A stretch of 64,000 bases of DNA, taken from Atopobiaceae bacterium. Its GTDB lineage: Bacteria > Actinomycetota > Coriobacteriia > Coriobacteriales > Atopobiaceae. The notes under the pieces are model-generated. The model made no database searches. It was not told the DNA's origin and saw only the letters and a list, made by a program, of their open reading frames with translations. Both the position numbers and the translations under genes were made by a program. Position 1 is the first letter of the stretch, and each line of letters begins with the position of its first letter. Positions 18,642 through 22,346 of this stretch are shown piece by piece. The DNA lies in contig JAKVOB010000001.1 in assembly GCA_022483015.1 (NCBI GenBank), positions 806,001 through 870,000 on the forward strand, read 5' to 3'.

Positions 18642-19304
18642 ATGCTCGAGGACCTCAAGCTTCAGGTCATGAACGTCGCCAAGCGTGCCCAGGCGGAAGG
18701 CCTCTGCAAGCATAAGTCGGGCAACTTCTCGCAGCGTGACCCCGAGACCGGCCTCGTGGTGATCACGCCCAGCGGCGTGGACCGCGAGGCGCTCGCGGTG
18801 GACGACATGGTGGTATGCGATGCCGGGGCCCGTGTGGTCGAGAGCGCCCATGGCCTGCGTCCTACGAGTGAGCTGCTCATGCACCTCAAGGCCTACGAGG
18901 TACGACCGGACGTGGTCGCCATCGCCCATACCCACTCGACGTATGCCACCACCTTCGCCGTGCTGGGCCGTCCCATTCCTGCCGTGGTCTATGAGCACTC
19001 CTACCTCGGCTGCGCACAGGGCGTCGTCCCGGTGGCACCGTACGGCCGTCCGGGTACGCAGGCCCTGGCCGACTCGATCGCAGCCCCTGCGACCGAGAAT
19101 GACACCTTCCTGCTCAGGAGCCATGGTGCCGTCGCGCTCGATGAGACCGACATCGCTGGGGCCTATCTCAAGGCCTGCTACCTGGAGGAGGTCGCAGAGA
19201 TCTACTATCTCGCCCTCACGGCCGCAGGCGGGGCCGAGCCTGAGTCCCTGCCTGCCGAGGAGCTTGAGAAGTGGGCCTATCCCGAGCAAATCAAGCTGTC
19301 CTGA
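18642..19304 (+). CDS. Class II aldolase (FucA/AraD family)
   Basis: A 220-residue zinc aldolase or epimerase. Visible motifs are KHKSGNFSQRD near the N-terminus (phosphate binding), VITPSGVDREAL, the zinc ligands in AIAHTHSTYATTFA and the later LLRSHGAVAL, with the catalytic acid region VYEHSYLG between them. Length fits L-fuculose-1-phosphate aldolase or a related sugar-phosphate aldolase; AraD epimerases are usually about 230. Substrate is not certain because no pathway partners lie nearby. Confidence 0.82.
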   Translation: MLEDLKLQVMNVAKRAQAEGLCKHKSGNFSQRDPETGLVVITPSGVDREALAVDDMVVCDAGARVVESAHGLRPTSELLMHLKAYEVRPDVVAIAHTHSTYATTFAVLGRPIPAVVYEHSYLGCAQGVVPVAPYGRPGTQALADSIAAPATENDTFLLRSHGAVALDETDIAGAYLKACYLEEVAEIYYLALTAAGGAEPESLPAEELEKWAYPEQIKLS

Positions 19305-19350
19305 CGCCGGGTCCCTCGCGCCTGACGCCCAGCCCTGCCCGTGACATGTG

Positions 19351-19379
19351 TTGACAACCCATACGAGCGGGTACACAAT
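19351..19379 (+). promoter_or_regulatory. Promoter of the mgtA-type transcript
   Basis: A perfect TTGACA (19351-19356) followed after 17 bp by CACAAT (19374-19379). Transcription would start near 19386, leaving a leader of about 255 nt that contains a small ORF. Confidence 0.55.
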
Positions 19380-19463
19380 CCACAGGTCGATGTCATCCGG
19401 AGCGGTGATGCGGCTTGAGCGTTCCAGCGGGCCCACGGCCCCGATCCCAAGGAGGTGCCACCC

Positions 19464-19553
19464 ATGAGAGACAGCCACGCCCGACCGTGCGATCCCTGCC
19501 ATGTCACGGGAGCGGCGCCTGCGAACAGGGAGCAGCGCGCCCGCCTCGTCTGA
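19464..19553 (+). CDS. 29-residue leader ORF upstream of the Mg2+ ATPase gene
   Basis: AAGGAGG, one of the strongest ribosome sites in the window, stands 8 bases before the ATG at 19464. The ORF runs 29 codons (starts MRDSHARPCDPCHVTG, ends RARLV) and stops at 19551-19553, 87 bases before the ATPase start. It is proline-, acid- and cysteine-bearing at its N-terminus and carries a CDPC motif. In Salmonella, the mgtA leader peptide MgtL controls transcription of the ATPase gene; sequence identity is not claimed, only the same arrangement. A function as a sensing peptide is inferred. Confidence 0.55.
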   Translation: MRDSHARPCDPCHVTGAAPANREQRARLV

Positions 19554-19589
19554 CCAGGGGAGCGGCTACGGTCGTACCTCCAGCCAGAT

Positions 19590-19620
19590 GGTCCCAGCCA
19601 GCCCGGTGGGCCGGCATCCC
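19590..19620 (+). promoter_or_regulatory. Leader hairpin before the Mg2+ ATPase ribosome site
   Basis: The leader between the small ORF and the ATPase start can fold with an outer CCCAG/CTGGG pair around an inner GCCC-GGT-GGGC hairpin. It ends just before the gaggtgg ribosome site, so folding could affect readthrough or translation. Confidence 0.35.
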
Positions 19621-19640
19621 TGGGAGAAGCGAGGTGGACC

Positions 19641-22346
19641 ATGTCCCTTCGTCCCATCACGGAGCAGCGCTCCATAGACCGTGACCGTCTGCGCCATCTT
19701 GCCCAGATCGACGTCGCGGAGGTCTACCGCGAGCTCGGCAGCGCCCCCGGCGGCCTCACCTCCGACCAGGTCACGGCGTCGCGTGCGGCACATGGCGCCA
19801 ACTCGGTCACCCATGCCAAGCGCGACCCCGCCATCAAGCGGCTCGTCCTCTCGTTCGTGGACCCGTTCACCGGCATCCTCGTGGTGTTGGCCTTCGTCTC
19901 GCTCATGACGGACGTGGTCCTCGTCGCGCCGGCAGACCGTAATCCCTCCACCACGATCATCATCCTCACGATGGTCGCGCTCTCGGGCATCCTGCGCTTC
20001 GTGCAGGAGTCCAAGAGCGGCGATGCCGCGGCAGCCTTGGCCTCGATGATCTCGAACACCTGCGACTGCGAGCGCGCGGGTGGCGACCGCAAGGAGATCC
20101 CGCTCGACCAGCTCGTGGTAGGGGACGTGGTGCACCTCTCGGCCGGCGACATGGTCCCGGCTGACCTCAGGCTCGTCGCGGCCAAGGACCTGTTCGTGGC
20201 GCAGTCCTCGCTCACGGGCGAGTCCGCCCCCCAGGAGCGTGGGAGCCACCTCACGGCAGATGCCCGGACGGCGGCCATCACCGACCTCGATGACCTCGTC
20301 TTCATGGGATGCACCGTCGTCTCGGGAGGCGCGGCGGGTGTGGTCGTGAGCTGCGGGTCGGGCACCCTCTTCGGCGAGATGACCAACATGCTCACCACCC
20401 GTCCCCAGAAGACGGCCTTCGATGCAGGCATCGCGTCCGTCTCGCGCCTGCTCATCCGCTTCATGCTCGTGATGGCGCCCATCGTCTTCGTGATCAACGG
20501 CGTCACCAAGGGCAGCTGGCTCGACGCCCTGCTCTTCGCCCTCTCGGTGGCGGTGGGCCTCACGCCCGAGATGCTGCCCATGCTCGTGACGAGCTGCCTG
20601 GCCAAGGGGGCCGTCGACCTCAGCCATGACAAGGTCATCGTGAAGAAGCTCGACGCCATCCAGAACCTGGGCTCGATCGACGTGCTCTGCACCGACAAGA
20701 CCGGAACCCTCACCGAGGACCGCGTGGTCCTCGAGCGCCACCTCGACGTGGCTGGTCACGACGACCCGCGCGTCCTGCGCTATGCGTTCCTCAACAGCTT
20801 CTTCGAGACGGGCCTGCGCAACCTCATCGACTCCGCCATCATCACGCGTGCCTGCGAGGAGGGCACGCGTGATGGCGACGCGCCTACGGCCGACGACCTC
20901 TCGGCGACCTACTACCGCATCGACGAGCTGCCCTTCGACTTCGACCGCCGCCGCGTGAGCGTCGTCGTGGGCGACCGGGACGGGCATACCCGCATGATCA
21001 CCAAGGGGGCCGTGGAGGAGGTGCTCGCCGTCTGCTCCACCGTGGAGTACGAGGGGAAGGTGCGCCCGCTCACCAAGGACATGGTCGACATCGTGATGAG
21101 GCATGCATCCAGCCTGGCCGACGAGGGGATGCGCGTGCTCGGCGTCGCCCGCAAGGACGAGCCGGCGGGTGCGGGCACGCTCACCAACGATGACGAGAGG
21201 GACATGTGCCTGATCGGCTACCTGGCATTCCTCGACCCGCCCAAGGCGAGCGCCGCCGACGCCATCGCGGCACTCTCGGCCCATGGCGTGGCTACCAAGG
21301 TGCTCACCGGCGATTCCGCCCGCGTGGCCTGCCACGTCTGTCGTGCGATCGGCATCCCTGCCGACGACGTCCTCCAGGGGACCGACGTCGATGCCCTCAC
21401 CGACGAGCAGCTCGCCCAGCGGGTCAGGGAGGTCACGGTCTTCGCCAAGCTCTCGCCCGACCAGAAGGCGCGCGTGGTCCATGCGCTGCGTGGCCTCGGG
21501 CATTCGGTCGGATACATGGGCGACGGCGTGAACGACGCGGCCGCGATGCGCGAGAGCGACTGCGGGATCTCGGTCGACTCGGCCGTGGACGTGGCCAAGG
21601 AGACGGCCGACATCATCCTGCTCGAGAAGGACCTCATGGTGCTCGAGCGGGGCATCGTGGAGGGCCGGCGCACCTATGCCAACATGATCAAGTACATCAA
21701 GATGACCGCGAGCTCCAACTTCGGGAACATCTTCTCGGTGCTGGTGGCGAGCGCGTTCCTGCCGTTCCTGCCCATGGCGGCCGTGCACCTGCTGCTGCTG
21801 AACCTCATCTATGACGTGTCCTGCTCGGCCATCCCCTGGGACAACGTGGACGCCGAGTACCTGGCGCGACCCCGCGCATGGGACGTGGGGTCCATCGGCT
21901 CGTTCATGCGTTGGATCGGTCCCACGAGCTCGGTCTTCGACATCATGACATACCTGGTGCTGTTCTTCGTGGTGTGCCCGGCGGTGTGCGGCGGCTCCTG
22001 GGCGCAGGTCGCGGGTGACCCGTCCCTGAGCCTCCTCTTCGTGGGGACGTTCCAGGCGGGGTGGTTCGTCGAGAGCATGTGCACGCAGACCCTCGTGGTG
22101 CATATGATTCGCACGCCCAAGGTGCCCTTCGTGGAGAGTCGCGCCTCGGCGCCGCTCACGCTGCTGGGCCTTGTCGGCATCGTGGTGGCAACGGTCATCC
22201 CGTACACGCCGGTGGGCACATCCTTGGGATTCTGCCCGCTGCCGGCGTCCTACTACGGATGGCTCGTCCTCATCGTGTGCTGCTACATGGTGCTCGTCAC
22301 GGTGGTGAAGCGTCTCTATGTGAGGCACTTCGGGGAGCTGCTGTGA
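19641..22346 (+). CDS. mgtA: MgtA/MgtB-type Mg2+-importing P-type ATPase
   Basis: A 901-residue P3B ATPase. N-terminal actuator features include LTGESAPQ (191-198). The helix M4 motif GLTPEMLPMLVTSC (306-319), typical of MgtA/MgtB, precedes the phosphorylation loop CTDKTGTLTED with Asp352. The hinge GYMGDGVNDAAAMRESD and KMTASSNFGNIFSVL, which leads into the C-terminal helices, are intact. It imports Mg2+ at the membrane at the cost of ATP. Length matches the family (about 900). It stands alone behind a long leader with its own ORF, and ends at a strong hairpin. Confidence 0.95.
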   Translation: MSLRPITEQRSIDRDRLRHLAQIDVAEVYRELGSAPGGLTSDQVTASRAAHGANSVTHAKRDPAIKRLVLSFVDPFTGILVVLAFVSLMTDVVLVAPADRNPSTTIIILTMVALSGILRFVQESKSGDAAAALASMISNTCDCERAGGDRKEIPLDQLVVGDVVHLSAGDMVPADLRLVAAKDLFVAQSSLTGESAPQERGSHLTADARTAAITDLDDLVFMGCTVVSGGAAGVVVSCGSGTLFGEMTNMLTTRPQKTAFDAGIASVSRLLIRFMLVMAPIVFVINGVTKGSWLDALLFALSVAVGLTPEMLPMLVTSCLAKGAVDLSHDKVIVKKLDAIQNLGSIDVLCTDKTGTLTEDRVVLERHLDVAGHDDPRVLRYAFLNSFFETGLRNLIDSAIITRACEEGTRDGDAPTADDLSATYYRIDELPFDFDRRRVSVVVGDRDGHTRMITKGAVEEVLAVCSTVEYEGKVRPLTKDMVDIVMRHASSLADEGMRVLGVARKDEPAGAGTLTNDDERDMCLIGYLAFLDPPKASAADAIAALSAHGVATKVLTGDSARVACHVCRAIGIPADDVLQGTDVDALTDEQLAQRVREVTVFAKLSPDQKARVVHALRGLGHSVGYMGDGVNDAAAMRESDCGISVDSAVDVAKETADIILLEKDLMVLERGIVEGRRTYANMIKYIKMTASSNFGNIFSVLVASAFLPFLPMAAVHLLLLNLIYDVSCSAIPWDNVDAEYLARPRAWDVGSIGSFMRWIGPTSSVFDIMTYLVLFFVVCPAVCGGSWAQVAGDPSLSLLFVGTFQAGWFVESMCTQTLVVHMIRTPKVPFVESRASAPLTLLGLVGIVVATVIPYTPVGTSLGFCPLPASYYGWLVLIVCCYMVLVTVVKRLYVRHFGELL

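Follow-up and report, generated by a model that had tools for sequence, protein, structure and literature searches.

Enterobacteria are known to have the leader ORFs MgtL and CorL. When Mg2+ is low, the acidic and proline residues of MgtL make the ribosome unstable, which releases mgtA, and the EPDP sequence lowers translation of the upstream ORF (uORF) and raises the transporter (PMC11552253, PMC11282234). MgtQ is an 8-codon ORF before Salmonella mgtB, between mgtC and mgtB in the operon; Asp2 and Glu5 reduce the translation of MgtQ itself and raise mgtB, and the ORF works by way of alternative stems at the ribosome site that follows (PMC8092293). Rho-dependent termination has been described for CorL, the uORF that precedes corA in Salmonella and E. 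coli (PMC11552253). Other Mg2+-transport leaders carry the M-box riboswitch (RF00380), which can stand in tandem with a uORF as in M. tuberculosis, where the uORF is conserved; the mycobacterial uORF2 is reported to be mycobacteria-specific and is described as the regulated ORF (PMC12810186).

We analysed a 64,000-nucleotide stretch (the window) of an Atopobiaceae genome (order Coriobacteriales; 2.28 Mb) in which a leader ORF precedes mgtA. Like MgtL (PMC11552253, PMC11282234), it is a short ORF that lies in the mgtA 5' leader, has a ribosome site of its own and carries an acidic residue near its N-terminus, and the stem over the uORF ribosome site in the described E. coli structure has its equivalent here in a predicted duplex called helix A (below). 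N-termini such as METGSKHSPDPDGRP are similar in composition to that of MgtL (MEPDP...), but the peptides are too short to show homology. Because EPDP and an Rfam match are both absent, we describe the leader as MgtL-like and do not file it as MgtL; also unlike MgtL, this leader type occurs in Coriobacteriia and Firmicutes and stands before mgtE as well. It shares with MgtQ a strong Shine-Dalgarno sequence (AGGAGG in MgtQ) and early acidic codons, and we count the stems at the next ribosome site as a further likeness, but it lies in a 5' leader and ORFs of its type are mostly 18-44 codons long. The M-box systems resemble it as Mg2+-transport leaders, and the window differs from them in having no M-box. 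As CorL does with corA, leader ORFs here also precede a Mg2+ transporter gene besides mgtA, namely mgtE, although the gene family and the organism are different. The open-access literature that we searched, outside which most subscription papers lie, does not describe such a leader in Coriobacteriia or Firmicutes.

The mgtA locus and its leader region

The gene behind the leader is a true mgtA: its product scores 1102.7 bits against NCBIfam TIGR01524 (cut-off 610.75), and its nearest PDB chains are P-type Mg2+ ATPases. The leader region extends from the end of the upstream ORF at 19304 to mgtA (Table 1); its last part, 19464-19640, runs from the start of the leader ORF to the last base before mgtA, with a gap of 87 nt between ORF and gene. 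The first-pass annotation had pointed to a 29-codon ORF with a strong ribosome site, a TTGACA and a hairpin here, and all three were found. The ORF, from its ATG at 19464 to its stop at 19551-19553, encodes MRDSHARPCDPCHVTGAAPANREQRARLV. The TTGACA (19351-19356) is followed after a 17 nt spacer by CACAAT (19374-19379), and this is the sole promoter match in 5 kb; since shuffled sequences give 0.5, it is weak evidence taken alone. Structure prediction places hairpins in the later half of the ORF and 5' of the mgtA ribosome site. The leader peptide has no Pfam match, an Rfam search of 19300-19700 (E up to 10) gave no match to any Mg2+ leader family, M-box RF00380 included, and an exact-sequence scan of viral contigs gave none.

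Table 1. Features of the mgtA leader region in the window, and leader peptides before mgtE genes of other Atopobiaceae
Feature	Position or locus	Strand	Basis
Putative sigma-70 promoter, TTGACA-17-CACAAT	19351..19379	+	10/12 matches, sequence only
Shine-Dalgarno AAGGAGGTG of leader ORF, 9 nt	19449..19457	+	chance rate; kept in relatives
Helix A, 5' arm (ribosome site and start of leader ORF)	19450..19475	+	predicted duplex, -25.7 kcal/mol; own-vs-cross test
29-codon leader ORF with conserved N-terminus (acidic residue at position 3 followed by S-H)	19464..19553	+	conservation
Helix A, 3' arm, within leader ORF	19495..19523	+	predicted duplex; own-vs-cross test
Candidate anti-SD CCGCCTCGT, end of leader ORF, complementary to mgtA ribosome site	19541..19549	+	sequence
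Stem UCCCAG/CUGGGA around inner GC hairpin, just 5' of mgtA ribosome site	19592..19625	+	predicted
mgtA ribosome site GCGAGGTGG	19629..19637	+	sequence
mgtA, Mg2+-transporting P-type ATPase, 901 aa	19641..22346	+	NCBIfam and PDB comparison
mgtE leader peptide MDGGGSTGS	L326 (G052)		
mgtE leader peptide MSDHSGHPS	L285 (G121)		
mgtE leader peptide MSDPSGHHL	L325 (G122)		
mgtE leader peptide MADGDSHRP	L323 (G170)		
mgtE leader peptide MTDGDSHRS	L324 (G169)		

Occurrence of the leader ORF and the signal at its start

How often is such an ORF expected by chance? Counted over 400 kb of the source genome (800,000 strand-nt), ATG ORFs 12-50 codons long number 0.01 per 400 nt if 7 or more contiguous nt of Shine-Dalgarno complement are required, and 0.001 per 400 nt if 8 or more are. 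A strong-SD leader ORF precedes mgtA at 47 of the 62 loci in Atopobiaceae, at 18 of 27 in the rest of Coriobacteriales and at 41 of 78 elsewhere, mostly in Firmicutes, counts that are not phylogenetically independent; the identical scan upstream of 30 Atopobiaceae copper-type P-ATPases gave 0/30. The loci were gathered by similarity to the window MgtA, their start sites were assigned by script, and several of the genomes are MAGs. No columns of the leader alignment are better conserved than those of the Shine-Dalgarno sequence and the start codon, and the start and ribosome site, whose conservation had been named as a point on which the idea should stand or fall, are kept in most relatives with mgtA. 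The original proposal of a circuit in Actinobacteria is too narrow, since Coriobacteriia and also many mgtA loci of Firmicutes type have the leader; nine mgtA-like loci from other actinobacterial families gave one weak candidate only. A degenerate DNA pattern, so strict that even known carriers escaped it, had no match in 299 genomes, and in the source genome look-alike ORFs with similar N-termini show no sign of a downstream Mg2+ gene.

About one quarter of the Atopobiaceae mgtA loci have no leader ORF in the strict scan. Some of these are second copies, namely the second mgtA of the tandem in a same-genus genome (G001, Atopobiaceae bacterium UW_MP_ATO1_2, contig JALCUE010000002.1) and the second gene of G059; in the former pair (G001:C2:319351-325027; L032, L033) the leader stands on the first gene only. 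Locus L125 (G022) has no leader, and the gene preceding it ends in RYGELL, as MgtA C-termini do.

The conserved part of the peptide is its N-terminus, which is M-x-(D/E)-x-S/H-like; typical examples are MSDSHSR, MDADSCK, MEGSHSR, MDSDSRSR, MDADGSS, METGSKHSPDPDGRP and MESQSINSPEPERP. An earlier, permissive table had chosen among candidate ORFs by an acidic-N-terminus score, which biased its acid fractions, so the count was redone on 76 representatives (<70% alike) picked without sequence selection: 70 of the 76 have Asp or Glu within positions 2-4, whereas among 20 background ORFs 3 do (Fisher p=3e-11). The acidic N-terminus is kept across phyla despite varying codons and ATG, GTG or TTG starts. 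Two nearby acids, the known ribosome-destabilising motif, are present in only 13 of 50 Atopobiaceae leader peptides. The window peptide begins MRDSHARPCDP, with a single Asp near its start (position 3) and no EPDP, and some Firmicutes leader peptides contain PDPDG or SPEPE. The annotation had also proposed metal or redox sensing by the cysteines of a CDPC motif. This is not supported: CDPC occurs in 1 of 122 unique leader peptides (that of the window), CxxC occurs in 8 of the 122 and many have no cysteine at all, so that conservation of cysteine or CDPC was rejected.

Codon choice and reading frame also bear on the start of the ORF. The serine codon AGT has a count of 70/117 in codons 2-10 of Atopobiaceae leader ORFs versus 52/1645 in mgtA, and CGA, AAA and GAA are likewise favoured in these leader codons. 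AGT triplets among the first codons have frame counts of 135:0:8 at varying distances from the ATG, and in Atopobiaceae the CATGGG block of the helix A 3' arm is in frame 20 times out of 23. Among close relatives, the changed codons comprise 18 synonymous and 25 non-synonymous in codons 2-10 (18/43), and 23 synonymous and 62 non-synonymous after codon 10 (23/85), a synonymous excess that is modest in the former and nil in the latter. Selection on the leader peptide therefore appears to be confined to its start, and RNA pairing may be the main constraint on its second half. As signs of coding, the frame-locking and the acidic N-terminus are better than dN/dS, which gives only modest evidence. 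Codons 2-10 of mgtA do not have the rare-codon excess (Ser AGT, Arg CGA, Lys AAA, Glu GAA).

Helix A and the output step

The arms of helix A co-evolve across relatives. When the two arms of one leader are compared with combinations exchanged among relatives, the native pairing is the better one in 22 of 23 leaders from Atopobiaceae (p=2.4e-7), in 10 of 14 from the rest of Coriobacteriales (p=0.007) and in 38 of the 42 remaining ones (the Firmicutes set; p=8.4e-11); taken in the window alone the helix is not exceptional, 8 of 60 shuffles being equally good. The 3' arm has a like position (ORF nt ~31-62) in the sister genome and many Atopobiaceae, and a stem over the leader-ORF ribosome site is present across relatives. 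The outline of the second stem, just 5' of the mgtA ribosome site, is conserved in Atopobiaceae, with two-sided changes in 3 pairs only. Several relatives have T-rich stretches after its equivalent.

By what step could the leader act on mgtA? Sequestration of the Atopobiaceae mgtA ribosome site GCGAGGTGG by the end of the uORF looks good by eye but is not supported, as co-evolution of the partners across Atopobiaceae is not significant (cross-pairing p=0.47), and in Coriobacteriales the site shows no co-evolving partner. In Firmicutes such sequestration is supported (p=0.006), for example CUGUACUUCC with GGAGGUACAG in alignments. A modelled ribosome on codons 6 to mid-ORF there adds 1.6-2.2 kcal/mol to the cost of opening the mgtA start, and one on codon 10 makes the start harder to open in 22 cases and easier in 2 (p=8e-8), a predicted direction that agrees with MgtL; in Coriobacteriales the same model gives no consistent effect on the mgtA start and no clear direction. 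Intrinsic terminators between ORF and gene number 19 of 42 in Firmicutes (4.2 expected) and 3 of 23 in Atopobiaceae (1.6 expected, no enrichment). The window has no stable hairpin with a U-tract between leader ORF and mgtA, and an intrinsic-terminator attenuator was rejected there. Since sequestration, the modelled ribosome-position effect and terminator enrichment are supported in Firmicutes but not in Atopobiaceae/Coriobacteriales, the output step seems to differ between lineages. At L038, L063, L074 and L090 the stretch from ORF to mgtA contains a terminator that is close to perfect and alike in sequence among these loci (CCAUCGUUUG-type hairpin plus T-tract); these leaders are probably transcription attenuators of the same class.

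Association with Mg2+ transporters and proposed mechanism

A sequence model of 33 Atopobiaceae leaders, run against 140 genomes, gave matches at E<1e-6 that are mgtA leaders by their coordinates, and the next-best matches include two mgtE genes. The leader ORF type together with helix A precedes all five testable true Atopobiaceae mgtE genes (NCBIfam TIGR00400 above cut-off; a sixth, in G129, was left out as too near a contig end), with ATG, GTG or TTG starts, and two genomes (G169 and G170) carry the leader on mgtA and mgtE alike. It is absent before ~24 MgtE_N-domain proteins of another type. An M-box lies 5' of the leader ORF at 29 of the 47 non-Coriobacteriales loci scanned (within L036-L112), which are candidates for two stacked Mg2+ controls on one mgtA; among 20 Coriobacteriales loci scanned only L163 has an M-box, and it has no typical ORF. 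At L056 (108-207) the mgtA leader ORF is preceded by a NiCo riboswitch (77.4 bits), in the place taken by the M-box at other loci. Judged from these genomes, versions of the leader precede two unrelated kinds of Mg2+ transporter in many gut bacteria, and because of the two unrelated importers and the tandem M-box association, Mg2+ is most likely its signal.

Could the same observations be explained differently? An ORF that acquired a strong ribosome site by chance is scarcely credible: GC-rich intergenic DNA is rich in open frames, but 0.001-0.01 such ORFs are expected per leader, most Coriobacteriales mgtA leaders have one and the copper-pump controls have none, so that conservation refutes this reading. 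Nor is the peptide at all likely to act as a small protein in its own right, binding MgtA or MgtE in the manner of MgtR and MgtU; its occurrence with both transporters fits that idea, but it is hydrophilic, mostly 18-44 residues long and without a Pfam match, its C-terminal part is unconserved and near-neutral, and helix A binds the ORF to its own RNA.

The two remaining alternatives deserve more weight, and we regard both as unlikely. The leader RNA itself might be the Mg2+-sensing riboswitch, the frame being incidental or supplying a ribosome that reports the RNA fold; in favour of this are helix A, the conserved stem 5' of the mgtA ribosome site and the neutral-like evolution of the ORF's second half, but it is the Shine-Dalgarno sequence and start codon that are best conserved, AGT and CATGGG are kept in frame, the acidic N-terminus outlasts changes of codon and start codon across phyla, and Rfam gives no match. 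Somewhat less probable than this is a classical codon-type attenuator that senses charged-tRNA supply or other translation stress instead of Mg2+. The rare codons (Ser AGT, CGA, AAA and GAA) do cluster in codons 2-10; however, the amino acids are mixed and clade-dependent, and what the targets have in common is Mg2+ and not amino-acid metabolism.

We consider it reasonably probable, from sequence comparison and by analogy, that the ORF is MgtL-like and that its Mg2+-dependent early translation controls mgtA; the regulatory leader ORF that had been suggested at the outset is thus supported, as a putative one, by its conservation before mgtA. We infer that the ORF is translated in vivo and responds to Mg2+ as follows. 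A ribosome would load at the very strong ribosome site and translate the first codons, an acidic residue plus Ser/His/Gly, and this early acidic stretch would be a Mg2+-dependent slow point, by analogy with MgtL and MgtQ. At low Mg2+ the early codons would be poorly translated, through stalling or ribosome drop-off, and mgtA would be on; with sufficient Mg2+ the ribosome would continue and mgtA would stay low. Helix A, formed with the ORF interior, would reclose the ribosome site and allow one timed decision per transcript. The window peptide has its single Asp3 near the start, and rare-codon-aided stalling is therefore as possible there as drop-off; candidates for the output step in the window are Rho-dependent termination and occlusion of the mgtA ribosome site. 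The leader is probably a translation-based magnesium gauge that resembles, but is distinct from, the one in Salmonella and E. coli.

A wider reading, which we put forward tentatively and at a little under an even chance, is that these leaders form an undescribed class of nascent Mg2+-sensing peptides with a rare-codon, acidic Ser/Gly/His N-terminus and a self-covering ribosome site, which would run the unrelated importers MgtA and MgtE in two or more phyla, either by themselves or together with a tandem M-box, with outputs that vary by lineage. The dozens of natural N-terminus variants would then make the residues and codons that render a ribosome Mg2+-sensitive directly testable. If the reading is true, Gram-positive gut bacteria would generally use the ribosome itself to sense Mg2+, doing so for two unrelated transporters and often on top of a Mg2+ riboswitch.
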